Below are positions 1,282-11,727 of a stretch of DNA of 12,052 nt, piece by piece. The stretch comes from Enterobacteriaceae bacterium. GTDB lineage: Bacteria; Pseudomonadota; Gammaproteobacteria; Enterobacterales; Enterobacteriaceae. The notes beneath the pieces were generated by a model. The model had not been told where the DNA came from and did no database searches. It saw only the letters and a program-made list of their open reading frames with translations. Made by a program: the position numbers and the translations under genes. Each line of letters starts with the position of its first letter. Positions within the stretch are counted from its first letter, which is position 1. The stretch spans positions 1 through 12,052 of the forward strand of contig JALAGK010000167.1 in NCBI GenBank assembly GCA_022712475.1. Reading direction: 5' to 3'.

Positions 1282-2034
1282 TTACGTTACGATGTCTGTC
1301 TTTATCACCTCTATGCCTGCATCAAGCAGCGCCTTTTCATATACGCCGGCTAACTGGCTGTCGCTGATAACCCGATTGATTTGCGCGTTTATACCCAGTG
1401 GGTGAGGGTGAATCTGACCGAACTTGGCGCTGTCGGTCATCACGATGTTCTCTGCGCCTTTTTTCAGCACGCGGTTGATGATATCGGCGCGCATCATATC
1501 GCGGCCGGTAAAACCGGTTTGCCCAGTAAAACCATCCACGCCAATAAACGCCTTGCTGAAGTTCACCTGTTCCAGAGCCATGCGAGTGAGTGGGCCAACC
1601 ATGCTCTCCGTACCTTTTTGCAAGGTGCCGCCGAGTACCACGACATCACACTGCCCATCGCGCAGTAACCTTGCGATGTACGCGCTGACCGTCATGATGG
1701 TAATACTGGCCCTGGAGGCCAGCAGGCGTGCCAGAAAGGCATTGGTGCTACCGCTTTCAATGAACACCGTTTCGCCGTCCTGCACCAGCGAGGCGGCATA
1801 CGCGGCCAGGCTTTGCTTGTGGGCAAAATGGTTGAGCATGCGTGCATCGGTATCATCGCTGTCGGTGAGAATGGCGAAACCATGCTCACGGCGTAGCCAG
1901 GCGTTTTTTTCCAACTGACTGAGGTCATGGCGGACAGTAACAAGAGAAACGCCAGTGACGTGGGCGAGTTCGGCAACGCTGACTTTTTGGCGATCGCCGA
2001 CAATTTGCATAATACGCTGCTGGCGTGAATTCAT
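1282..2034 (-). CDS. DeoR-family transcriptional repressor, YciT-like
   Basis: This 250-residue protein has the DeoR plan: an N-terminal winged helix-turn-helix (about residues 6-55, recognition helix near VSLVTVRHDL, ending in RREHGFA) and a C-terminal sugar-phosphate sensor domain. The sensor landmarks are ESGSTNAF (93-100), LGGT (134-137), MVGP (145-148), KAFIGVDG (161-168) and DSAKFG (201-206). The start MNSRQQ and the stretches TESMVGPLTR and TGFTGRDMM resemble what I remember of E. coli YciT, so it belongs to that branch rather than GlpR or AgaR. It is the last gene of the pflE-pflF unit, 63 bp after pflF, with an AGG eight bases before the ATG. DeoR proteins generally bind phosphorylated sugars and repress neighbouring genes, so the likely role is control of pflEF and perhaps fsaA. 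The inducer (possibly an anhydro-sugar phosphate) and operator are inferred. No defect is seen in the reading frame. Confidence 0.9.
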   Translation of the reverse strand: MNSRQQRIMQIVGDRQKVSVAELAHVTGVSLVTVRHDLSQLEKNAWLRREHGFAILTDSDDTDARMLNHFAHKQSLAAYAASLVQDGETVFIESGSTNAFLARLLASRASITIMTVSAYIARLLRDGQCDVVVLGGTLQKGTESMVGPLTRMALEQVNFSKAFIGVDGFTGQTGFTGRDMMRADIINRVLKKGAENIVMTDSAKFGQIHPHPLGINAQINRVISDSQLAGVYEKALLDAGIEVIKTDIVT

Positions 2035-2059
2035 AGAAATAACCTGAGGATAACGAAAA

Positions 2060-2086
2060 CGGCGCGCCCGTTTACAGGACGCGCCG
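2060..2086 (-). terminator. GC-rich hairpin between pflF and the regulator gene
   Basis: A 7-bp perfect stem, CGGCGCG (2060-2066) with CGCGCCG (2080-2086), lies between the pflF stop and the deoR-type ATG. Read on the minus strand it is followed by TTTTCGTT, a short imperfect U-tract. It may be a partial terminator that lowers regulator expression relative to pflEF, or an mRNA-stabilising stem at the pflF 3' end. Confidence 0.45.
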
Positions 2087-2097
2087 GGATGTGAAGG

Positions 2098-4530
2098 TTA
2101 CAACGTGTGTTCGGTGCGGGCGATGATATCGTCCTGGGCATCTGGCGATAGTGCGGTAAAGAATGCCGAATAGCCGGCGCCGCGCACCCCCAGCTCGCGG
2201 TAGCTGTCCGGGTGCTTCTTCGCTTCAATCAGCGTTTCACGCGAGACAATGTTGTATTGAATGTGCCAGCCCAGATGTACTTCAAAGAAGGTGCGCAGCA
2301 GCATCATCAGCTTTTGTTTGTCGCTGTCGTTTTCAAGCGTTGCCGGATTGAGCTTCTGGTTGAGCAGCACGCCGCCAAGTATTGAGCCGGTAGGTAGCTT
2401 GCCAACGGACCCAATCACCGCTGTTGGGCCGAGGTGGTCAGTGCCGGAGGATGGGCTGGCACCCTCTGCCAATGGCGTGGCGGCCTTGCGCCCGTCCGGC
2501 GTGGCCATGGTTGCTGCGCCAAACGGCACGTTAGCCGAGATGGAAGAGGTGCCTGCGTAATAATTACCGCCAATCGGGCCGCGGCCATAACGCGGGTTAT
2601 GATAGTTTTTCAACTCCTCAATATAGGTTTCATAGGCGCGAATCAGTAGTGCGTCGACGCTGTCGTCGTCGTTGCCGTACTTGGGGGCACCGTTAATCAG
2701 GCGCTGGCGCAACTGCTCGTTGGTCAGGCCTTCAAAATCTTCTTCCAGCGCTTTTGCGAGCTGCTGTTGCCCGATGGCACCTTGCTCGAACACCAGTTTT
2801 TTCACTGCGGCCAGGCTATTGCCGAGGTTGGCGATGCCCACCTGCAGACCGGAAACCCAGTCGTATTTTGCGCCACCTTGTTTAATGCTTTTCGCGCGCT
2901 CGATACAGTCGTCCACCAGCGCCGAGCACAGAATATCGTGCACGTTTTCCTCAAGCATGGTGTCCACCACGTACTCTATTTCAATAGACTTGCGGGTGTA
3001 GTAGCGAATCTGGTTATCCCAGGCGGCCAGCACCTCGTCAAAATTAGTAAAATTACCCTTCGAGAGTGCCTGGGTCTGTGGCAGGAATACCTCGCCGCTG
3101 GTGGCATCGCGCCCACCTTCCATTGCGGCCAGCATCACACGCGCGAAGTTAATAAAGCTCATGCCGGTACAGCGATAGCCCCATTTTCCGCCGACGGCCG
3201 TTTCAATACAGCCGATGGCCGCGTACTGGTAAGCGTCTTCACGCTCAACGCCCAGCTTGATGAATTCCGGGATAACGATTTCGTCGTTGTTAAAGGCGGG
3301 CATACCAAACCCACAGCGGATCACTTGTACGCAGGCGTCAAGGAAGTCGTCGCTCATACCTGCGTGATAGCGCACGCTAAGGTTCGGCTGGGTGGAGCGC
3401 AGGCGACCGCAGGATTCAAGAATGGCGTAAGAAAGTGGGTTAACCGCATCAACCGGCTCGCCTTTCACCAGGTTCTGGCCGCCAATGGTGACGTTCTGGT
3501 ACAGCGGACTTCCGGCTGAGGCCTTGGAGTGCGAGCCGGAGCGGATTTTATTCACTTCCAGCAACTTAAGCCAGCAGCTGTGCAGCATCTCAATGGCCTG
3601 TTCGCGGCCAATGTTCTGCTCGAGCTCAACGTCGCGGCGATACCACGGATATAAATACTGGTCCATGCGTCCAAAGGAAACTGAGTGGCCGTTGGATTCA
3701 ATTTGCAGAATCAGTTGGATGAAGTAGCACAGCTGGAGCGCCTGCCAGAAGGTCTGCGGCGGTTGATGGGCGATAACGTCACAGTTCTCAGCAATGGTCA
3801 TCAGTTCGGCGCGACGTTCTGCGCGAGTTTCGCTCTGCGCCATTTCGCGCGCTAATGCGCCAAAGCGGGTGATGTGCGAGCTTACTGCTTCCAGCACAAT
3901 ATCAATGGCCTTGAGAAACTGCTCGCCGTGCAGATCGTCCAGTACGGTCAGGTTGATACGCGAACGACGCTCACGCACTTTTTCACGCAGGCCATCCATG
4001 CCTTTTTCTAACAGTAACGGGAAGTTCACCGCCAGATGGGCGTCGCCCGAGGTCATATTACCTTCAGCTTTAATAATGCCGGTTGCAAGCAATGCTTTCT
4101 GCTCATCAGTAAACATGCCGTAACAGCGGTCCTGCACCGTCTGGCCGCGCCACCACGGGCAAATGTCATGCAGCACGCGCTTGTTGTCTTCGCTTACGGC
4201 AAAGCCTGCGCCGGGACGGTCGGCCAGGTCATCGATTTCCTTTTCAATCCAGCTTACCGTGTATTCCGGGAAGATTGGTGCGGCGCGTACCTCGCTTGCC
4301 TGGTTGCCGACGATAAGCTCATCGTGCTTAATCCAGATAGTGCGGTGCGCCAGGTGATAAGCGAGCGCCAGCGCACGGCGGACCGGGATGGGCTTATCCA
4401 TATTCTGCTGATAAACGGTAGTGTAATGCTGCGCGCGTTCAGTACAGACCGGCGGCTTAACAATGTGGACCAGCGCATTTTTGTGTGCCTGGATGCGTTG
4501 AGTCAGCTGGTCTAGTTTCAGAATGGTCAT
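2098..4530 (-). CDS. pflF: Glycyl radical enzyme PflF/YbiW (probable AG6P lyase type)
   Basis: This 810-residue glycyl radical enzyme matches E. coli YbiW (PflF) in length and over long stretches I recognise. The active-site loop reads G440-C441-I-E443: one catalytic cysteine followed by a glutamate two residues on, the C-O lyase/dehydratase pattern, not the Cys-Cys of pyruvate formate-lyase. The radical glycine is G786 in the C-terminal loop (RGAGYSAFF). The usual motif is R-V-x-G-Y; here the valine is glycine. Older annotation is 'putative formate acetyltransferase'. Recent biochemistry, as I recall it, assigned YbiW to ring-opening of 1,5-anhydroglucitol-6-phosphate to 1-deoxyfructose-6-phosphate, a substrate of FsaA; adjacent fsaA fits. 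The enzyme would be cytosolic, anaerobic and oxygen-sensitive. It starts 3 bases after the pflE stop, with its Shine-Dalgarno (GAGGAT) across the end of pflE, so the two should be translationally coupled. Family is certain; substrate is inferred by orthology. Confidence 0.95.
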   Translation of the reverse strand: MTILKLDQLTQRIQAHKNALVHIVKPPVCTERAQHYTTVYQQNMDKPIPVRRALALAYHLAHRTIWIKHDELIVGNQASEVRAAPIFPEYTVSWIEKEIDDLADRPGAGFAVSEDNKRVLHDICPWWRGQTVQDRCYGMFTDEQKALLATGIIKAEGNMTSGDAHLAVNFPLLLEKGMDGLREKVRERRSRINLTVLDDLHGEQFLKAIDIVLEAVSSHITRFGALAREMAQSETRAERRAELMTIAENCDVIAHQPPQTFWQALQLCYFIQLILQIESNGHSVSFGRMDQYLYPWYRRDVELEQNIGREQAIEMLHSCWLKLLEVNKIRSGSHSKASAGSPLYQNVTIGGQNLVKGEPVDAVNPLSYAILESCGRLRSTQPNLSVRYHAGMSDDFLDACVQVIRCGFGMPAFNNDEIVIPEFIKLGVEREDAYQYAAIGCIETAVGGKWGYRCTGMSFINFARVMLAAMEGGRDATSGEVFLPQTQALSKGNFTNFDEVLAAWDNQIRYYTRKSIEIEYVVDTMLEENVHDILCSALVDDCIERAKSIKQGGAKYDWVSGLQVGIANLGNSLAAVKKLVFEQGAIGQQQLAKALEEDFEGLTNEQLRQRLINGAPKYGNDDDSVDALLIRAYETYIEELKNYHNPRYGRGPIGGNYYAGTSSISANVPFGAATMATPDGRKAATPLAEGASPSSGTDHLGPTAVIGSVGKLPTGSILGGVLLNQKLNPATLENDSDKQKLMMLLRTFFEVHLGWHIQYNIVSRETLIEAKKHPDSYRELGVRGAGYSAFFTALSPDAQDDIIARTEHTL

Positions 4531-4533
4531 AGA

Positions 4534-5433
4534 TTATCCTCGTAAAGTGGCCGCCAGACCTTTTTGCTGCGCGTAATCCTGTGCAAAGCTGAGCAGTGCG
4601 GGGCTGTCCAGCGGTTTATCCGGCGCGTGGTAGGGCTGGTCCAACAGAACGTATTTGTTCATACCCAGCGTGTGGTACGGTAAAAAGTGAATATCGTGAA
4701 TGTTGAGCTCGTCAGCAGCGAAGTCGGTAATGGCGCGAATGCTGTCCTCATCGGCGTTAAACCCGGGGATAAGCGGGACGCGAATGGTCATTTTCTTACC
4801 CGCAGCGGCAATGCGCTTAAGGTTGTCGAGCACGCGCTTTGCCGAACCGTCGGTCCACTGTTTAAAAACCGCACCATCTACGTGCTTGAGGTCGGCCAGA
4901 AACAGGTCGATGTGGGCGAGTGAAGGTTCGATATAGCGCCACGGCACATGCAGGCAGGTTTCCACGGCGGTGTGAATGCCAGCCTCATGGCTGCGCTGAA
5001 GCAGCGTTTGCGTAAGCTGCGGGTTCATAAACGGTTCACCACCGGACAGCGTGATGCCGCCGCCGCTGCGTTCATAGAATGGGCGGTCACGCATGACGGT
5101 TGCGAGAATATCGTCTGCGGTTTTGTCTTCGCCGCATACCGTTAACGCCTGGGTTGGGCAACAATGTTCCAGCACTGCAAAGCGATCGGGCTGTAACTTT
5201 TCACGATGAATCACCAGTTTGTCAGCCACGCGTTGTACGATATCCGGTGCTGCCTGCTGGCATAGCTCACAACCGTCGAGGCACAGGCGCGCATCAAACA
5301 GTAGATCCTGGGTGCGCGCGCGACTTTCTGGGTTCTGGCACCAGCGGCAGCCCAGCGAGCAACCTTTCAGGAATACGACGGTGCGAATTCCGGGGCCATC
5401 ATGTGTGGAGTAGCGCTGGATATTGAAGATCAT
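4534..5433 (-). CDS. pflE: Glycyl radical enzyme activase PflE/YbiY (radical SAM)
   Basis: This 299-residue radical-SAM enzyme uses a [4Fe-4S] cluster and S-adenosylmethionine to abstract a hydrogen from the radical glycine of its partner, here PflF G786. The cluster motif CX3CX2C is at C25, C29 and C32, preceded by the activase hallmark [16 protein letters not shown] (residues 10-25). The SAM-contacting GGEP is at 131-134. A ferredoxin-like insert typical of activases of non-PFL glycyl radical enzymes has cysteines C51, C55, C58, C91 and C92, with C100 close by. The start is fixed by MIFNIQRYS, which matches E. coli YbiY apart from two extra N-terminal residues there, and by GAGAGG seven bases upstream. 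It is the first gene of the pflE-pflF-regulator unit and diverges from fsaA across the shared control region. No defects are seen. Confidence 0.95.
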
Positions 5434-5459
5434 CGCGTAGCCTCTCTTGTTTCGTATGA

Positions 5460-5465
5460 ATAGTA
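5460..5465 (-). promoter_or_regulatory. Candidate -10 of the pflE promoter
   Basis: TACTAT on the minus strand (4 of 6 to consensus) would start transcription near 5453, about 20 bases before the pflE ATG. There is no recognisable -35 box (ATCACT at 17-bp spacing). The FNR box would be centred near -43.5, close to but not exactly the class II position. Nearby alternatives (TAATTT at 5470-5465) cannot be excluded. Confidence 0.35.
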
Positions 5466-5469
5466 AATT

Positions 5470-5485
5470 ACTTTCGAAAGAAAGT
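5470..5485. promoter_or_regulatory. Candidate DeoR-type operator
   Basis: ACTTTCGAAAGAAAGT contains a perfect 10-bp palindrome, CTTTCGAAAG (5471-5480), overlapping an ACTTTC/GAAAGT inverted pair. TTTCG / CGAAA cores and GAAA direct repeats are typical of DeoR-family operators. A second TTTCG lies at 5450-5454, 22 bp away, about two helical turns, over the expected pflE start point. The site falls within the pflE promoter, so binding there should repress it. That the YciT-like protein encoded downstream binds here is inference from motif and linkage. Confidence 0.5.
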
Positions 5486-5489
5486 GATA

Positions 5490-5503
5490 TTGACTACGAT
5501 CAA
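5490..5503. promoter_or_regulatory. FNR box between pflE and fsaA
   Basis: TTGAC-TACG-ATCAA differs from the FNR consensus TTGAT-N4-ATCAA at one base. It sits in the 140-bp divergent region. For fsaA its centre (5496.5) is at about -40.5 relative to the start predicted from the -10 box, essentially the class II activation position of -41.5. An anaerobic activator is what an oxygen-labile glycyl radical enzyme operon should have. Confidence 0.75.
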
Positions 5504-5524
5504 CGATCGTCGCGAAGTGAAGGC

Positions 5525-5530
5525 TATACT
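5525..5530 (+). promoter_or_regulatory. fsaA promoter -10 box (FNR class II type)
   Basis: TATACT (5 of 6 to TATAAT) predicts a start near 5537 and a leader of about 37 bases. The -35 position (AACGAT, 5502-5507) has no consensus match and touches the FNR box, as is usual when FNR replaces the -35 contact. Confidence 0.6.
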
Positions 5531-5573
5531 GAATGAAATTTTGCTAACTATCACAATTCCGGGGAGTGCCTGA

Positions 5574-6236
5574 ATGGAGCTTTATCTCGATACTTCTGAC
5601 GTTACTGCGGTAAAGCGCCTGGCGCGCATTTTTCCGCTGGCAGGCGTGACAACTAACCCAAGCATTGTTGCCAGTGGTAAGAAGCCAATAGATGTACTGC
5701 TGCCGGAGTTGTATGAGGCGCTCGGGGGTAAAGGGCGGCTTTTTGCCCAGGTAATGGCGCCGCGTGCTGAAGAGATGGTGCAGGAAGCAAAGAAACTGCG
5801 GGCCATCGTCTCCGGTTTGGTGGTGAAAGTGCCGGTGACGGCAGAAGGACTGGCGGCAATTAAGCTGCTGGCAGCTGAAGGCATTCCTACGCTGGGCACG
5901 GCCGTTTACGGCGCCGGGCAGGGGCTATTATCGGCGCTGGCCGGTGCGCACTATGTCGCGCCTTATGTTAATCGCCTGGATGCGCAGGGGGGCGACGGTA
6001 TTGCTACGGTGAGGGATTTGCAGCAACTGCTTTCGTTGCATGCACCGGGTGCGAAGGTGCTGGCGGCGAGCTTCAAAACGCCACGCCAGGCGCTTGAGTG
6101 TCTGCTGGCGGGCTGTGAATCCATTACGCTGCCTCTGGACGTGGCGGAACAATTTATTTCAACCCCAGCAGTTGATGCCGCCGTTGCAAAATTTGAGCAG
6201 GACTGGTTACGCGCATTTGGGACAGCAGGTCTGTAA
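5574..6236 (+). CDS. fsaA: Fructose-6-phosphate aldolase FsaA
   Basis: This 220-residue protein is the full length of E. coli FsaA and very similar to it; it is closer to FsaA than FsaB in the stretches I can compare (for example LFAQVM and [15 protein letters not shown]). It is a transaldolase-fold class I aldolase that cleaves fructose-6-phosphate reversibly to dihydroxyacetone and glyceraldehyde-3-phosphate and accepts other donor ketones such as hydroxyacetone. The known active-site residues are present: Schiff-base K85, with D6, Q59, T109, A129 and Y131. The start follows GGGGAG (5561-5566) by seven bases. It diverges from pflE across a shared FNR-controlled region. In the YbiW pathway as I recall it, FsaA splits 1-deoxyfructose-6-phosphate into hydroxyacetone and glyceraldehyde-3-phosphate, which explains the linkage. 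It ends at a strong terminator and is monocistronic. Confidence 0.97.
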
Positions 6237-6323: not shown

Positions 6324-6362
6324 GATAACGCCACCGCGGAAGGTCCTTGCGGTGGCGTTATC
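6324..6362 (+). terminator. Second long hairpin after fsaA
   Basis: A perfect 14-bp stem, GATAACGCCACCGC with GCGGTGGCGTTATC, encloses an 11-base loop and on the plus strand is followed by TTTATTCT. It could be a backup terminator for fsaA. On the minus strand it lies 35 bases beyond the small basic gene's stop but has no T-run there, so it would act as a 3' stabilising stem for that transcript. Confidence 0.6.
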
Positions 6363-6845: not shown

Positions 6846-9800
6846 TTACTTCGTTACCAGTGTGACTTTCATTGGCGTGAGTGGGAAGACGCCGTCTGGC
6901 ATGGCGCCGGATGCGTAGATATCTCCGGCAAGGCCGTAGACTTCCATCGAACCGCCTTTTTTCGCCAGTCTGAAGGACTCATAGAAAACATAAGGCAGTT
7001 TATCCGTGAAGGTCAGCGTGCCGTTGTTCTCCTTGCTGAGCACTTTGCCGTCAAGCATGGCTTCCGTCAGCTCAAAGTTGATGCTGTCGCCTTCATTGTA
7101 CGCGCTGCTGCCGGCTTTCCCCTGCACGAAGAACAAGTTGTTGTTCTGCTTGAGAACCTTTTTCTTCGACGTGGCGGTACGCAATTGCGAGAACGCTTTG
7201 TCGAATTTCTGCTTCTCAAGCTTGCTCAGTGAATCCATCAGATTGCGATGGTTCTTCATCAGCGAGCCTTCGTCGAGGCGGGATTTATCAGACACGCCGT
7301 CTGCAATACCTGCCAGGACTGCTGCGACATCCACCTTCACGCCCAGGTATTCCTGCTCGCTGATGTTTTTCTTCAGCATGCGTGAGAACACTACGCCGTT
7401 AGTATAGGAGCGTTTTGAGTCTTCGCTCTTAAGCGCGGCTGTACTGGCGGCGGCAGGCAGGTTCTGCGCCTGTGTTTCTTTCGCTTTAGTCAGCTCGGCA
7501 TTGGATTTTGTCAGTTCTTCGATTTTTGCGTTGAGCTGGGAGATCTGACCATCACGCTCGCGCAGGGCATCGCTGGTTTTGCTCAGTTCAGTGCTGGATT
7601 TGGTCAAATCGGTGTTGAGCTTAGTCAGCTCGGCCACCTTCGCGTTAAGCTGGGCTATCTGGCCGTCGCGCTCGCGCAGGGCATCACTGGTTTTACTCAG
7701 TTCAGTACTGGACTTGGTTAGATCAGCGTTCAGTTTTGTCAGTTCAGCAACTTTGGCACTGAGCTGGACTATCTCACCGTCACGTTCAGCCGCATTTTTC
7801 TCTTTCTCATTGAGTTTCGCAGTAATTTGCTTGATGTCTTCTGCTGCTTTATTACGTGATTCCGCCAGCGCTTTTTCCAGCTGCGCGACTTTGTCACCCG
7901 AGCTTTGCGCCAGTTTTTTCTGCTCTTCAAGCTGTGCAGTCAACTGCTTCACGTTTTCAGCCGTTTTTGCTGTCTCAGCCAGAGACTTCTCAAGCTCTGC
8001 CACTTTACTATTCGCACTCAGACCCTGCTGCTTCTGTGCTTCAAGCTGCGCCGTTAACGCTTTGAGATCGTCTGCTGCTTTATTGCGTGAGTCAGCCAAA
8101 GCTTTTTCAAGCTCAGCTGCTTTATCGGCAGATGTGCGCGCGGCTTTTCTTTGCTCATCCAGCTGCTTGTTCAGCAGCTCAATAGCGTCGGCGTTTTTAC
8201 CGCCTGTCTGCGCCAGCGTTTTCTCCAGCGCAGTGGCTTTTTCAGCCGCGTTTTGTGCGAGCTTCTTCTGCTCTTCAAGCTGAGCAGTAAGCTGCTTGAC
8301 GGTTTCTGCTGTTTTAGAGGTATCCGTCAGCGACTGTTCGAGCAGTGCTACGCGGTTACCGGCTGTCTGCCCCAGCTGTTTTTGCTCATTAAGTTGTGCA
8401 GTGAGCTTTTTAACTTCATCCGCTGCTTTGGACTGAGAATCAGCCAGGGCTTTTTCCAGCTTAGTAACTTTGTCGGTAGCGGACAGCGTCTGCTTCTTCT
8501 GCTCGTCTAACTGCGCGGTCAGTTCTTTAACGTTCTGTGCATTTTTAGACGACTCAGCGAGCGACTTCGTGAGCTCGGCAATTTTGCCATCTGCGCCTTG
8601 GTTGAGTTTTCTCTCTTTTTCCAACTCGGTAGACAGCAAATTGATTTTCTCAAGCGCCTTGTCGCCTGATTCGGCCAGCGTTTTCTCAAGCACCTTGACG
8701 CGGTTTTCAGCGTTCTGGCTAATCTGTTTCTGCTCTTCCAGGCTGTTAGCCAGCAGATTGATTTTCTCAAGCGCTTTGTTGCCCGCATCGGCCAGAGATT
8801 TCTCCATCGCGGCAATGCGTTCGTCAGCACTCTGGCTGGCTTTTTGCTGTGCTTCGAGCTGTGCCGTGAGTTTCTTTTGTTCCTCGGCGGCTTTCGTTCG
8901 TGAGTCCGCCAGCGCTTTTTCAAGCTGTGCCGATTTATCGGCTGCGGTTTGTGCCGCTTTTTTCTGCTCTTCAAGCTGGCTGGTCAGGCTCTTGATGATG
9001 TCAGCATTTTTACCGCCGGATTCAGACAGCGTTTTTTCCAGCAGGGCGACTTTGCTGCCAGAGTCCTGGCCAAGTTGCTTCTGTTGTTCAAGCTGTGCGG
9101 TGAGCGCTTTAATTTGTTCAGCGGCTTTTTTATTCGACTCGGCAAGCGCTTTTTCCATCTCGCTGGCTTTATCGCCCGCGCTGGCGTTAAGCGTTTTTTG
9201 TTCAGCAAGCTGGGAAACCAGCTTCTGGATTTCATCTTGCGATTTGGTACGCGACTCAGCGAGTGACTTCACCAGTTTGGCAATCTCAGCTTTAGCAACC
9301 TCGTTGAGCTTCTTCTGTTCCTCAAGCTGTTCAGTCAGCTGTTTTGCACTTTCCGCTGTTTTACCCGTTTCAGTGAGCGATTTTTCCAGTAGTGCAACTT
9401 TGCCGCCAGCGCTTTGACTCAGTGCTTTTTGCTCATCAAGCTGCGCTGTGAGTGCTTTAAGATCATTAGCCGCTTTTGTGCGTGATTCCGTCAGGTTTTG
9501 TTCAAGCTGGCTAGCACGATCATTAGCCGCAAGTGTGAGCTTCTTCTGCTCTTCAAGCTCAGCCGTCAGACGCTTAACGTCATCAGCCGCTTTATGAGAG
9601 GCGGCGAGTGATTTTTCTAACTCAGCCAATTTGCCGCCAGAGGCCTGCATAAGGTTCTTCTGGTCGTTGAGCTGTGCGGTAAGTGTTTTCACTTCTTCAG
9701 CAGACTTATTGCGTGAATCAGCCAGCTCTTTTTCAAGCGTAATGACTTTATCGCTCGCGGCCTTGGTCTGTTTTTGCTGCTCAACCAGCTGAAGGCTCAG

Positions 9801-11135
9801 CGCTTTAACAGTATCTTCAGCCTTCAGAGAGGCGCTCAGAGACTGTTGCAGCTGAGCCACTTTGTCGCCAGAGGACAGGCTGAGATTTTTTTGTTCGGTG
9901 AGCTGGGCGGTAAGTGCTTTGATCTCGTCGTCAGATTTCTGACGCGACTCTGCCAGCATTTTTTCCAGCTTGCTGACCTGCTCATTCGCCGTCTGTGTCA
10001 GCTTTTGCTGTTCGGCGAGTTGGGCGTTAAGTTGCTTAACGTCTTCAGCGGCTTTATGGGATGCGGTGAGCGCTTTCTCCAGCTCGGCCACTTTGCCGCC
10101 AGAAGCCTGCATAGCGGCTTTTTGCTCATTAAGCTGCGCAGTCAGCACCTTAATATCATCAGCAGACTGGCGACGGGATTCGGCCAGTTCTTTTTCGAGC
10201 CCCTCGGCTTTCTGCGCTGAGGCCTGAGCCAGCTTCTGTTGCTCTTCAAGCTGAGCGGTCAGACGCTTAACCTCTTCTTCGGCTTTGCGTGAGTCTGCGA
10301 GTGATTTCTCAAGCAGGGCGACTTTGTCGCCAGAGTCCTGGCTAAGCGTTTTTTGGGTATCAAGCTGGGAAGCCAGCTGATTAATCTGGTCGCTGGATTT
10401 ATTGCGTGATTCTGCCAGCGCTTTTTCCATTTGTGCGACTTTATCAGCGGCAATCTGGGCCTGCTTTTTCTGCTCATCAAGCTGGGCCGTGAGTGTTTTC
10501 ACCTCACCTGCTGATTTTTGCGCAGCCGCAAGAGATTGTGTCAGCAGCGCAATTTTCTCTTCCGACTTTTTATTTAACTGCTGCTGCTCATGAAGCTGAG
10601 CGCTTAATGCTTTGATGGATTCATCGCCTTCACTTTCGTAGGCAGAATATTCCTGAAGGAGCTGTGATTTATCCGCAGACAGTTTATTAAACGCAGCCTT
10701 CAGCGCCGCATTCTCTTTTTCGAGTACGGTATATTGCTGGCGTTGTTCATTATTAACCGCTTGAGGTGTCGCCGCAGCCTGGTTTAGCTGCTTTCTAACA
10801 TTCTCCAACTCCTGAGCCAGCTTTTTATTTTTTTGCTGCAAGGCTTCATTTGAGGAGGCGAGCGTTTTTAATTGGGTGTTTTGTGAATGACGTTGTGGCG
10901 TTTGTGATGTTTGTAACCGCGGTTTAGGCTGCGTGTTAGGTTCATTGATTATATTTGTACGCGGCCTTGGCGTATAAGATCTGCTGTCAGGAGATGTCAG
11001 GGAGTTCAGCTCGGCATCGACAATTGCCTCAATGGCTGAAAAAAAATCCTTGCCTTTGGTCGATGCGTTGGCCCAGGGAAAAGATAGGCTCTGAAAGACC
11101 ATCAGTCCTATCACTGTCCTTGTGAATTTTTTCAT
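6846..11135 (-). CDS. Giant exported coiled-coil repeat protein with FkpA/Mip-like C-terminus
   Basis: This 1429-residue protein starts with a Sec signal peptide (MKKFTRTVIG..., cleavage likely after ANA at 22-24), followed by a Pro/Gln/Asn-rich linker (about 47-95). Helical sequence from 95 leads into 24 tandem 38/39-residue coiled-coil units (177-1103), then 38-residue copies of a second type (1118-1221). At the C-terminus, residues 1241-1325 resemble the FkpA dimerisation domain (EQE-LG-K-D, ADGVSDKSRL) and 1340-1427 resemble an FKBP fold. The usual FKBP pocket residues look replaced: the Phe-Asp pair after DGK is Leu-Ser and the core Trp is Phe. Prolyl isomerase activity is therefore doubtful and a chaperone or peptide-binding role is more likely. 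The array contains no Cys, Trp, Pro, Phe or Tyr that I can see. The product should be periplasmic and probably multimeric. It is co-transcribed with the lipoprotein gene 28 bp upstream; only a weak TAGG precedes its ATG. Function is unknown: a scaffold, spacer or fibre are all possible. Confidence 0.9.
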   Translation of the reverse strand: MKKFTRTVIGLMVFQSLSFPWANASTKGKDFFSAIEAIVDAELNSLTSPDSRSYTPRPRTNIINEPNTQPKPRLQTSQTPQRHSQNTQLKTLASSNEALQQKNKKLAQELENVRKQLNQAAATPQAVNNEQRQQYTVLEKENAALKAAFNKLSADKSQLLQEYSAYESEGDESIKALSAQLHEQQQLNKKSEEKIALLTQSLAAAQKSAGEVKTLTAQLDEQKKQAQIAADKVAQMEKALAESRNKSSDQINQLASQLDTQKTLSQDSGDKVALLEKSLADSRKAEEEVKRLTAQLEEQQKLAQASAQKAEGLEKELAESRRQSADDIKVLTAQLNEQKAAMQASGGKVAELEKALTASHKAAEDVKQLNAQLAEQQKLTQTANEQVSKLEKMLAESRQKSDDEIKALTAQLTEQKNLSLSSGDKVAQLQQSLSASLKAEDTVKALSLQLVEQQKQTKAASDKVITLEKELADSRNKSAEEVKTLTAQLNDQKNLMQASGGKLAELEKSLAASHKAADDVKRLTAELEEQKKLTLAANDRASQLEQNLTESRTKAANDLKALTAQLDEQKALSQSAGGKVALLEKSLTETGKTAESAKQLTEQLEEQKKLNEVAKAEIAKLVKSLAESRTKSQDEIQKLVSQLAEQKTLNASAGDKASEMEKALAESNKKAAEQIKALTAQLEQQKQLGQDSGSKVALLEKTLSESGGKNADIIKSLTSQLEEQKKAAQTAADKSAQLEKALADSRTKAAEEQKKLTAQLEAQQKASQSADERIAAMEKSLADAGNKALEKINLLANSLEEQKQISQNAENRVKVLEKTLAESGDKALEKINLLSTELEKERKLNQGADGKIAELTKSLAESSKNAQNVKELTAQLDEQKKQTLSATDKVTKLEKALADSQSKAADEVKKLTAQLNEQKQLGQTAGNRVALLEQSLTDTSKTAETVKQLTAQLEEQKKLAQNAAEKATALEKTLAQTGGKNADAIELLNKQLDEQRKAARTSADKAAELEKALADSRNKAADDLKALTAQLEAQKQQGLSANSKVAELEKSLAETAKTAENVKQLTAQLEEQKKLAQSSGDKVAQLEKALAESRNKAAEDIKQITAKLNEKEKNAAERDGEIVQLSAKVAELTKLNADLTKSSTELSKTSDALRERDGQIAQLNAKVAELTKLNTDLTKSSTELSKTSDALRERDGQISQLNAKIEELTKSNAELTKAKETQAQNLPAAASTAALKSEDSKRSYTNGVVFSRMLKKNISEQEYLGVKVDVAAVLAGIADGVSDKSRLDEGSLMKNHRNLMDSLSKLEKQKFDKAFSQLRTATSKKKVLKQNNNLFFVQGKAGSSAYNEGDSINFELTEAMLDGKVLSKENNGTLTFTDKLPYVFYESFRLAKKGGSMEVYGLAGDIYASGAMPDGVFPLTPMKVTLVTK
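7557..7784 (-). repeat. Two tandem 114-bp repeats (38-residue type 2 units)
   Basis: Within the giant gene, residues 1118-1155 and 1156-1193 are nearly identical 38-residue units running from RDG to DALRE, with AELTKLN and LTKSSTELSKTSD in the middle. A partial third copy (RDGQISQLNAKIEELTKSN...) follows to about 1221. The DNA copies differ at many third positions while the protein is almost unchanged. Confidence 0.9.
7827..10607 (-). repeat. 24-unit coiled-coil repeat array (38/39 residues per unit)
   Basis: Residues 177-1103 divide without remainder into 24 units, each opening with a variant of LTAQLxEQK and containing KVAxLEKxLAES near residues 18-30. Their lengths in order are 38,39 repeated six times (units 1-12), then 39,39,39,39,39,38,39,38,39,39,38,39, totalling 927. 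A 38 plus a 39 is 77 residues (231 bp), exactly 11 heptads, which puts the leading leucine alternately at an a and a d position with no break in register. Many units, mostly every second one, carry Gly or Gly-Gly at about residues 16-17 (SGD, SGG, AGG). Copies are diverged, not identical. Confidence 0.93.
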
Positions 11136-11163: not shown

Positions 11164-11652
11164 TTACTTTAACAAATCACCCTTCTTCAGCTCTGCGAGC
11201 AATGACTGGGAGATGGTGTTACAGGTATCGTTAATTTTGTACTGATACAGCGGCGTGATGGTGTCCTGGGTGTTGCCAGACAGTTGACCCGCGATGCCAG
11301 CGTAGTATTTGGTTGCCGCAATGCTGCGTCTGAGTGAATCAACCAGATTATTGTAAGTCCCGTTGCCGATGCTGGACAGTTGGCGCGCTTCTGCAAGGCA
11401 CGTCTGCAGACGCTGGCTGGTGATGCTTCTTTCTGAATCCATAACCTCGACGGTCTGGGTTGCGCCGTTTTCAGACACACCGCTCCAGCTGGACTGGGAG
11501 GACGGAGAAGCGTAGGACGTGCTGGCCTGTGATGAGGCGGCAGCATTATTGTCTGCTTTATAATTGCTGGTAGTCGTTTTATCTAACGTACAGCCGCTGA
11601 TTGTGCCAGCCAGCAGCAGAACCCCAAAAAGAGCACGCTTATTTTTAACCAT
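11164..11652 (-). CDS. Small outer-membrane lipoprotein, family unknown
   Basis: From the ATG at 11652 the product has 162 residues and begins with a lipoprotein signal, MVKNKRALFGVLLLAGTISG, followed by the lipidated C21 (lipobox I-S-G-C). Residue +2 is Thr, not Asp, so the Lol rules predict the outer membrane. A Ser/Ala/Asn-rich linker (about 25-62) tethers a helical C-terminal part with two cysteines, C85 and C144, that could form a disulfide. The frame stays open upstream to an ATG at 11787, but that would put the start upstream of the promoter and bury the signal sequence. GGAG lies close before the chosen ATG. It is the first gene of a two-gene unit with the giant coiled-coil protein, suggesting it anchors or partners that protein at the outer membrane; this is inference. 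I do not recognise the family. Confidence 0.85.
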   Translation of the reverse strand: MVKNKRALFGVLLLAGTISGCTLDKTTTSNYKADNNAAASSQASTSYASPSSQSSWSGVSENGATQTVEVMDSERSITSQRLQTCLAEARQLSSIGNGTYNNLVDSLRRSIAATKYYAGIAGQLSGNTQDTITPLYQYKINDTCNTISQSLLAELKKGDLLK

Positions 11653-11697: not shown

Positions 11698-11727
11698 ATT
11701 ATATAAGTAGGCAACAGGAAGTGTCAA
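11698..11727 (-). promoter_or_regulatory. Perfect-hexamer sigma70 promoter of the lipoprotein/coiled-coil operon
   Basis: On the minus strand, TTGACA (11727-11722) and TATAAT (11703-11698) both match the consensus exactly, 18 bp apart. The predicted start is near 11691, giving a leader of about 39 bases. It fixes the lipoprotein start at 11652. Such a strong core promoter implies high expression unless something represses it. Confidence 0.85.

Follow-up and report, generated by a model that had tools for sequence, protein, structure and literature searches.

A secreted coiled-coil array with an FkpA-like tail and its lipoprotein partner in Enterobacterales

What might a bacterial envelope protein do with a coiled coil of about 1,100 residues, and how does such a coil keep its register? 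The questions are raised by a stretch of 12,052 nucleotides of Enterobacteriaceae DNA (contig JALAGK010000167.1 of assembly GCA_022712475.1), here called the window, which is a complete 12-kb contig of an assembly of 3.15 Mb that is 73% complete. The coding sequence (CDS) at 6846..11135 (stop codon included) of its minus strand, the strand of all features below unless stated otherwise, specifies a secreted coiled-coil protein of 1429 amino acids with orthologues in three other genomes of the genus. Just 28 bases upstream and on the same strand is a gene for a lipoprotein of 162 amino acids (11164..11652, stop codon included). That the coil protein is a relative of FkpA by descent, with an export signal and with the FkpA pocket motifs lost, is strongly supported by sequence comparison, which also indicates that the lipoprotein and coil pair is operon-like and recurs in Enterobacterales. 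The role to which we lean, without quite granting it an even chance, is that of a coiled-coil fibre, tethered at the outer membrane and bearing non-catalytic FKBP heads, that is accessory to envelope or fimbrial assembly.

The repeat array and its register

The protein starts with a signal peptide (residues 1-24, 11064..11135; signal peptidase I site ANA followed by S, judged by eye), after which comes a short motif, DFFSAIEAI (residues 30-38, 11022..11048), picked out by eye from aligned N-termini of the family; relatives have forms such as DFLSSIQQI, again by eye. There follow some 1,100 residues of coil, in which residue 124 is the only proline, a second array with 38-residue units, and a tail of 202 residues. 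The main array (residues 177-1103, 7827..10607) was segmented anew, and the counts given by a first-pass annotation, made from the sequence alone, were recovered: 24 units that sum to 927 residues, nine units having 38 and 15 having 39. Each unit spans 11 core steps. The strict 38/39 alternation in units 1-12 (9222..10607), that is six pairs of 77 residues or 11 heptads, was also reproduced. The series then continues with 39 five times and 38, 39, 38, 39, 39, 38, 39, and units 12-17 (8637..9338) are six consecutive 39-residue units in which the heptad phase slips. A profile built from the window's units finds the identical 24 starts, though for the protein from which it was built this is not independent.

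The longest alternating run, of 12 units, was equalled or exceeded in 500 of 200,000 shuffles of the unit lengths. Over residues 1-29 of units 1-12, outside the insertion or deletion (indel), same-length units are 55% identical, compared with 46% for units of unlike length, a gap reached in 10 of 5,000 label permutations; the alternation is thus one of two unit types. Self-identity of the array peaks at a lag of 77, where it is 0.34. Tandem Repeats Finder (score >=50) reported nothing in the main array, the copies of which have therefore diverged at the DNA level, and detected only the second array (7528..7784, 2.3 copies at the DNA level). A core period of 3.45 goes with the unbroken series of 38s in this second array, a departure from 3.5 in the direction opposite to that of the 39s.

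Positions 1, 5 and 26 are Leu in all 24 units and position 22 is Leu or Met in all 24, while position 36 of the 38-residue units, or 37 of the 39-residue units, is Ile, Val or Leu in 22 units, Ala in one and Gln in one. The spacing is four between positions 22 and 26, and three from position 36/37 to the first Leu of the next unit, in both unit types. The additional residue of the longer type sits between Leu26 and position 36/37, which are 10 or 11 residues apart, and so 38 residues can be described as five heptads plus three, a stammer, and 39 as five heptads plus four, a stutter (terms used as in the portion consulted of PMC4786415). The stammer and the stutter cancel in each pair, 38 + 39 being 77 residues or 11 heptads. 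The idea that the leading leucine swaps between a and d positions has to be given up, as Leu1 and Leu5 are four apart in every unit and the core spacing is alike in both types. The 11-heptad super-repeat proposed for the array stands for units 1-12, where the hydrophobic phase stays between -34 and +39 degrees, and is not kept in units 13-24; at a period of 3.5 each of units 13-18 adds a slip of about 30-70 degrees, after which the phase wanders between 16 and 141 degrees. The best single heptad frame places 80 of the 180 L, I, V, M and F residues at a or d (60 of 94 in units 1-12), compared with 138 of 180 (71 of 94) for the unit-locked core positions, which were read off the same units and are hence fitted.

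Myosin rods have skip residues, single-residue insertions whose accumulated extras shift the heptad phase. The array exceeds 12 x 77 by three residues, a surplus that had been likened to these. The surplus and a mild local underwinding (39/11 = 3.545 residues per core step) are present and the accumulated extras do shift the heptad phase, but there are no discrete one-residue skips; instead the three residues are six half-residue slips at 39-39 junctions, five of them across units 12-17 and one at 21-22, and the analogy is loose. The array also resembles the stalks of trimeric autotransporters, which the consulted portion of PMC4786415 describes as long coiled coils with non-heptad periodicities. 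In contrast to those proteins, no translocation barrel is seen here, and the FKBP-like tail with its FkpA-type domain suggests a dimer. As to length, the earlier figure of about 138 nm for one continuous helix is arithmetically sound (927 x 0.1485 nm = 137.7 nm) but is an upper bound only, because the array contains 26 glycines, several of them at positions 16-17 of 38-residue units.

The lipoprotein partner and the FkpA-like tail

The partner has the lipobox ISGC with Thr at +2, a linker and two conserved cysteines. The residue at +2 after the lipobox cysteine foretells the membrane to which a lipoprotein goes (the Lol rule). In 42 of 43 aligned rows it is Q, T, E, S or A, and it is never D, the remaining row being without the Cys; an outer-membrane location is therefore predicted. 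The two cysteines other than that of the lipobox are invariant in the 43 rows. A protein search with the lipoprotein, in which 7,999 candidates were scored, gave 60 relatives, 39 of them with the precomputed Pfam entry PF27278, an entry that a Pfam scan of three relatives carrying it did not report. The lipoprotein profile matched nothing in the PDB below E 0.21, and a LysC match of one relative was under the cut-off (23.9 versus 27). Matches to the lipoprotein at E <= 0.001, the weakest of which are possibly due to chance, were present in 100 of 392 family genomes.

The pairing was followed in 79 loci, comprising the window, 14 loci found by matches to the tail or whole protein and mostly chosen for long open frames, four plasmid loci and 60 fetched by the lipoprotein. 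The lipoprotein gene is present in 13 of the 14 loci and adjacent to the coil gene in 10, beside which counts L051, where the coil open reading frame (ORF) behind the lipoprotein gene is cut by a masked stretch. Over all 79 loci, 78 contain the lipoprotein gene and 57 are paired, with an FKBP-tailed ORF within 600 bp. A signal peptide behind an ATG was accepted by script in 42 of the 57 paired members, and many of the other 15 have no in-frame ATG start. Rz/Rz1 spanins consist of a small outer-membrane lipoprotein and a coiled-coil partner specified by side-by-side genes. The arrangement here, a lipoprotein gene adjoining that for a coil, is similar, but a spanin was rejected because the coil protein carries the cleavable-type signal peptide, as judged by eye, and not an inner-membrane anchor.

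The tail (residues 1228-1429, 6849..7454) comprises an FKBP_N-type domain and an FKBP-like domain that lacks the FkpA pocket motifs. Searched in isolation, and only then, it scores 22.7 bits against Pfam FKBP_N (PF01346, cut-off 22). It matches FkpA in the PDB (1q6h) at E 1.2e-11 by sequence and at E 1.3e-17 by profile, and a protein search with the tail region gave nothing at E <= 0.001. Each of the pocket motifs, DGxxF[DNE] and [VI][IL]PG[WFL], which we take to be F36-D37 and VIPGW of the FKBP fold, is found in none of the 57 paired members, a result that is the same for search spans of the final 110, 150 or 210 residues; both are in all 11 control ORFs, identified as FkpA in 20 loci by their LAYG and YALG. 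Three of the 57 have a Trp at some point in the W59 region. For the whole protein, SMC, SpiroCoCo and DUF1664 were set aside as coiled-coil cross-hits under curated cut-offs (SMC 42.2 versus 567.35, SpiroCoCo 62 versus 125 bits).

Could the protein simply be an FkpA-type foldase or chaperone whose coiled-coil extension is inert? Its kinship to FkpA and Mip, the LAYG-type motif kept in 39 of the 57 paired members, and the DGxxF[DNE] kept by an unpaired coil protein, that of G145, speak for this. It is nevertheless very improbable, given the absence of both pocket motifs from every paired member, a tail score of 41.7 bits against an NCBIfam FkpA equivalog cut-off of 215, the presence in all three congeners of a separate FkpA-sized ORF (287-288 amino acids) and the purifying selection on the coil described below. 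FkpA/Mip-type isomerases share with the window's family the signal peptide, the order of FKBP_N-type and FKBP-like domains and detectable homology; the family differs in the hundreds of coil-repeat residues in front, the lipoprotein partner gene, variation in repeat number and the lost pocket motifs. In a tree of 14 tails, a clade I composed of the window protein and those of Tenebrionibacter, Cronobacter, Siccibacter, Edwardsiella and G065 is separated from set II, which includes FkpA and G145, by a branch with 100/100 support, the other 10 inner branches being weaker.

Array length among relatives

The orthologues from the three congeners (G163, G017 and G198) were compared with the window protein as reference. 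Counted with the unit profile, the window and G163 have 24 units, G017 has 23 and G198 has 20. Random unit lengths, the outcome that had been named beforehand as telling against the repeat, are not seen; the series is shared as far as each runs, with no main-array indel in G163, one 38-residue stretch missing from G017 and exactly two 77-residue blocks missing from G198. Main-array changes between congeners are thus of whole units only (38, 77, 77), and by this comparison the block of 77 residues is a genuine unit of evolution. Single-residue indels are confined to sequence beyond the main array (near aligned residues 51, 1219-1220 and 1232). In the second array G017 has 114 extra residues (3 x 38, three units) and G198 lacks seven. 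The period peak of G017 is at 3.458.

Main-array identity across the congeners is 74.5-92.8%. Its ratio of nonsynonymous to synonymous divergence (dN/dS) is 0.066, 0.069 and 0.091 against the three, with dS to G198 at 1.9, near saturation; by region the whole CDS ranges over 0.02-0.21. Strong purifying selection on the coil, together with a length that far exceeds the depth of the periplasm, would be in keeping with an in-plane periplasmic scaffold, in which dimers parallel to the cell wall form a lipoprotein-tethered fibrous layer for mechanical support and the head is a dimerization cap. A perfect sigma-70 consensus upstream of the lipoprotein gene (TTGACA-18-TATAAT, 11698..11727, 12 of 12 matches) would also suit an abundant structural protein; it is a motif match only, in a region with two promoter-like sites where shuffles give 3.8. 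Such a scaffold is rather improbable, as a patchy distribution, carriage on plasmids and location in fimbrial clusters better suit an accessory function, and as it is the FKBP-like head, not the coil, that is best conserved (83.6% versus 74.5% identity with G198).

Beyond the genus, the strongest self-match lags point to units of 32, 35, 42, 43, 46, 53, 56, 60, 63, 66, 67, 70, 71, 84, 89 and 102 residues. Among 26 hand-listed arrays, some of them related, 22 are no more than half a residue away from a multiple of 3.5, where 3 in 7 would be expected. Where the number of core steps is odd, the unit length in relatives is often constant (32, 46, 53, 60), with a half-residue slip each time, and the 38/39 alternation is therefore not a requirement of the family. 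Unit-by-unit parsing covered the window's genus and G133, a member of another clade, which mixes 38 and 39 (mean 38.53). Independent alternation in G133 was considered and rejected: its longest alternating run of six was reached in 47,103 of 200,000 shuffles and is ordinary, and its unit scores 73 against the window's unit compared with 48.5 (standard deviation 6.7) for shuffled sequence. Convergence is for these reasons not claimed. The arrays of L111 and L108 show two lags (35 with 31 or 32) and may have two unit types of their own.

There are 76 Cronobacter-type matches, 40 of which share their first twelve residues (C. dublinensis where named). In 39 of the 40 the protein has 715, 775, 835 or 895 residues, steps of a 60-residue unit, though assembly collapse is possible with this ladder as copy number can be misassembled from short reads. 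Such whole-unit variation, and the wide span of family coil proteins (about 400-1530 residues, short or broken ORFs left out), bring to mind a stalk projected from the surface, exported through the outer membrane or flipped with the lipoprotein, whose repeat number would set the reach of the head. Neighbours that build surface structures (fimbriae, the cellulose bcs genes and, by eye, an invasin-like protein) are in line with this, and, in the portions consulted, the literature on Periscope Proteins treats variation in repeat number as a means of surface tuning (PMC8201768, PMC9704523). Whole-unit changes between strains and a long stalk with a terminal domain are indeed common to both. Periscope stalks, however, are of tandem folded domains on the surface, and the definition in the consulted part of the review, of monomeric stalks, leaves out multimeric coiled coils (PMC9704523), whereas the stalk here is a coiled coil with periodicity near 3.5 that is probably dimeric. 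No outer-membrane translocation element was seen and FkpA ancestry favours the periplasm; with the ladder itself open to short-read misassembly, a surface stalk is on the unlikely side while deserving serious attention.

Fimbrial neighbours and a possible role

A homologue of the usher of chaperone-usher pili is present in 28 of the 79 loci and in none of 20 control windows from the same genomes. The corresponding counts are 30 for the chaperone, 25 for LuxR-type regulators and 10 for a protein with a Wzy domain, against 0, 1 and 0 of the 20 controls. The loci from which the queries came are counted here (two for usher, three each for the others); when they are excluded, 26 of 77 loci have an usher. 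For 24 of the 28 lipoprotein genes (in 27 loci) with an usher in the stretch, the nearest usher is on the same strand. Nine annotated plasmid loci were opened, of about 60 records with a match, and seven have fimbrial genes beside the FKBP coil (Klebsiella oxytoca, Salmonella, Pantoea HJS002, Enterobacter, Serratia entomophila, S. nevei and Escherichia albertii); the two without are from Klebsiella sp., with cellulose bcs genes, and Pantoea SOD02. In the E. albertii plasmid (L178:7380-8716) the coil gene is annotated as two overlapping ORFs in the fimbrial cluster, and two further E. albertii plasmids look alike to it. The Salmonella plasmid stretch has no near-identity match among E. coli genomes. 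The Wzy-domain protein, which is PglL/O-antigen ligase-like (L048, L056, L063, L106, L109, L114, L121, L122, L127, L136), hints at glycosylation of pilins or of the coil.

In the tethered fibre favoured above, the array is the stalk, a tandemly duplicated coil in front of an FkpA-type dimerization domain and an FKBP domain without pocket motifs. The FkpA-type domain would form a parallel dimer, and the coil protein would be anchored to the outer membrane by the lipoprotein, with the N-terminal motif as a possible point of contact. The fibre would measure at most some 170 nm, were it helical throughout, and might lie along the envelope or protrude, rather than stand upright across the periplasm, and its paired non-catalytic heads would hold envelope clients, which in fimbria-linked relatives could be pilus subunits or the usher. 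The length of the stalk would then be a tolerated or selected variable and not a ruler. A fuller version is offered tentatively: the pair may be an unrecognized Enterobacterales envelope module, composed of a lipoprotein and a repeat-expanded dimeric FkpA-derived coil with heads that are non-catalytic binding modules, and serving chaperone-usher pilus assembly as a tether or holdase of variable length; the stalk would be tuned by whole-unit recombination and, in the genus, the register kept by alternating stammers and stutters.

Several observations weigh against this reading. The usher enrichment has a Fisher p of 5e-4 (8e-4 without the query loci), which is descriptive only as the loci are from related genomes and not independent. 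No usher was detected in the 14 loci of clade I, the window's own and mostly free-standing (the window, L043-L049, L061, L064 and L095-L098, of which the last six were placed in the clade by genus or tail motif and not by the tree), compared with 28 of the 65 other loci; six usher matches are present in the window's genome, all of them on other contigs. The fimbrial link is consequently a property of the family that reaches the window only by homology, though the K. oxytoca plasmid locus of clade I (L061) is annotated beside a fimbrial cluster despite there being no usher detected in it. The pairing is also imperfect, for 21 of the 78 lipoprotein loci have no detected adjacent FKBP coil; in some of these the ORF is interrupted by a masked run or a contig end, or the tail is broken, and in others the neighbours are unrelated. 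L062 and L050 have the lipoprotein gene in another place or on the opposite strand, and in L054 it is absent. Finally, the unpaired coil protein of G145 (L050), mentioned above for its DGxxF[DNE], lacks the second motif, and its tail groups with FkpA. This protein keeps LAYG as well; its gene adjoins a Sel1-repeat ORF, and the lipoprotein on the opposite strand is of the paired type.

Should the tethered fibre prove correct, proteins of this kind would be stalks with a repurposed FKBP head and not isomerases, their genes sharing an operon with that of a lipoprotein and frequently having fimbrial genes around them, and an accessory part would be added to a well-studied assembly pathway. The family would further provide a natural series of coiled coils, their units spanning 32 to 102 residues, in which to test the ways that half-heptad units are tolerated, by alternation or by a fixed unit with a slip in each repeat. 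The records seen mostly label family proteins 'hypothetical protein' or 'FKBP-type isomerase N-terminal domain-containing protein', and no paper on the gene pair or the 38/39 array was recognized in the open-licence PMC literature by titles and the starts of abstracts.

At 1282-6236 of the window are ordinary neighbours: a DeoR-type regulator, a glycyl radical enzyme with its activase, and a fructose-6-phosphate aldolase, the last three matching E. coli ybiW, ybiY and fsa with 77% DNA identity. Between fsaA and the coil gene is a strong stem-loop of 16 pairs (6324-6362) that is terminator-like on the plus strand. Near the pair in two congeners is a SrfA family protein (L043:131-1426, NF040486 at 391 bits for this copy; L045:11587-12867, recognized by eye). 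Opposite the coil, ORFs of up to 315 codons on the plus strand (7579-9417) are probably a by-product of the biased codons of the coil gene.

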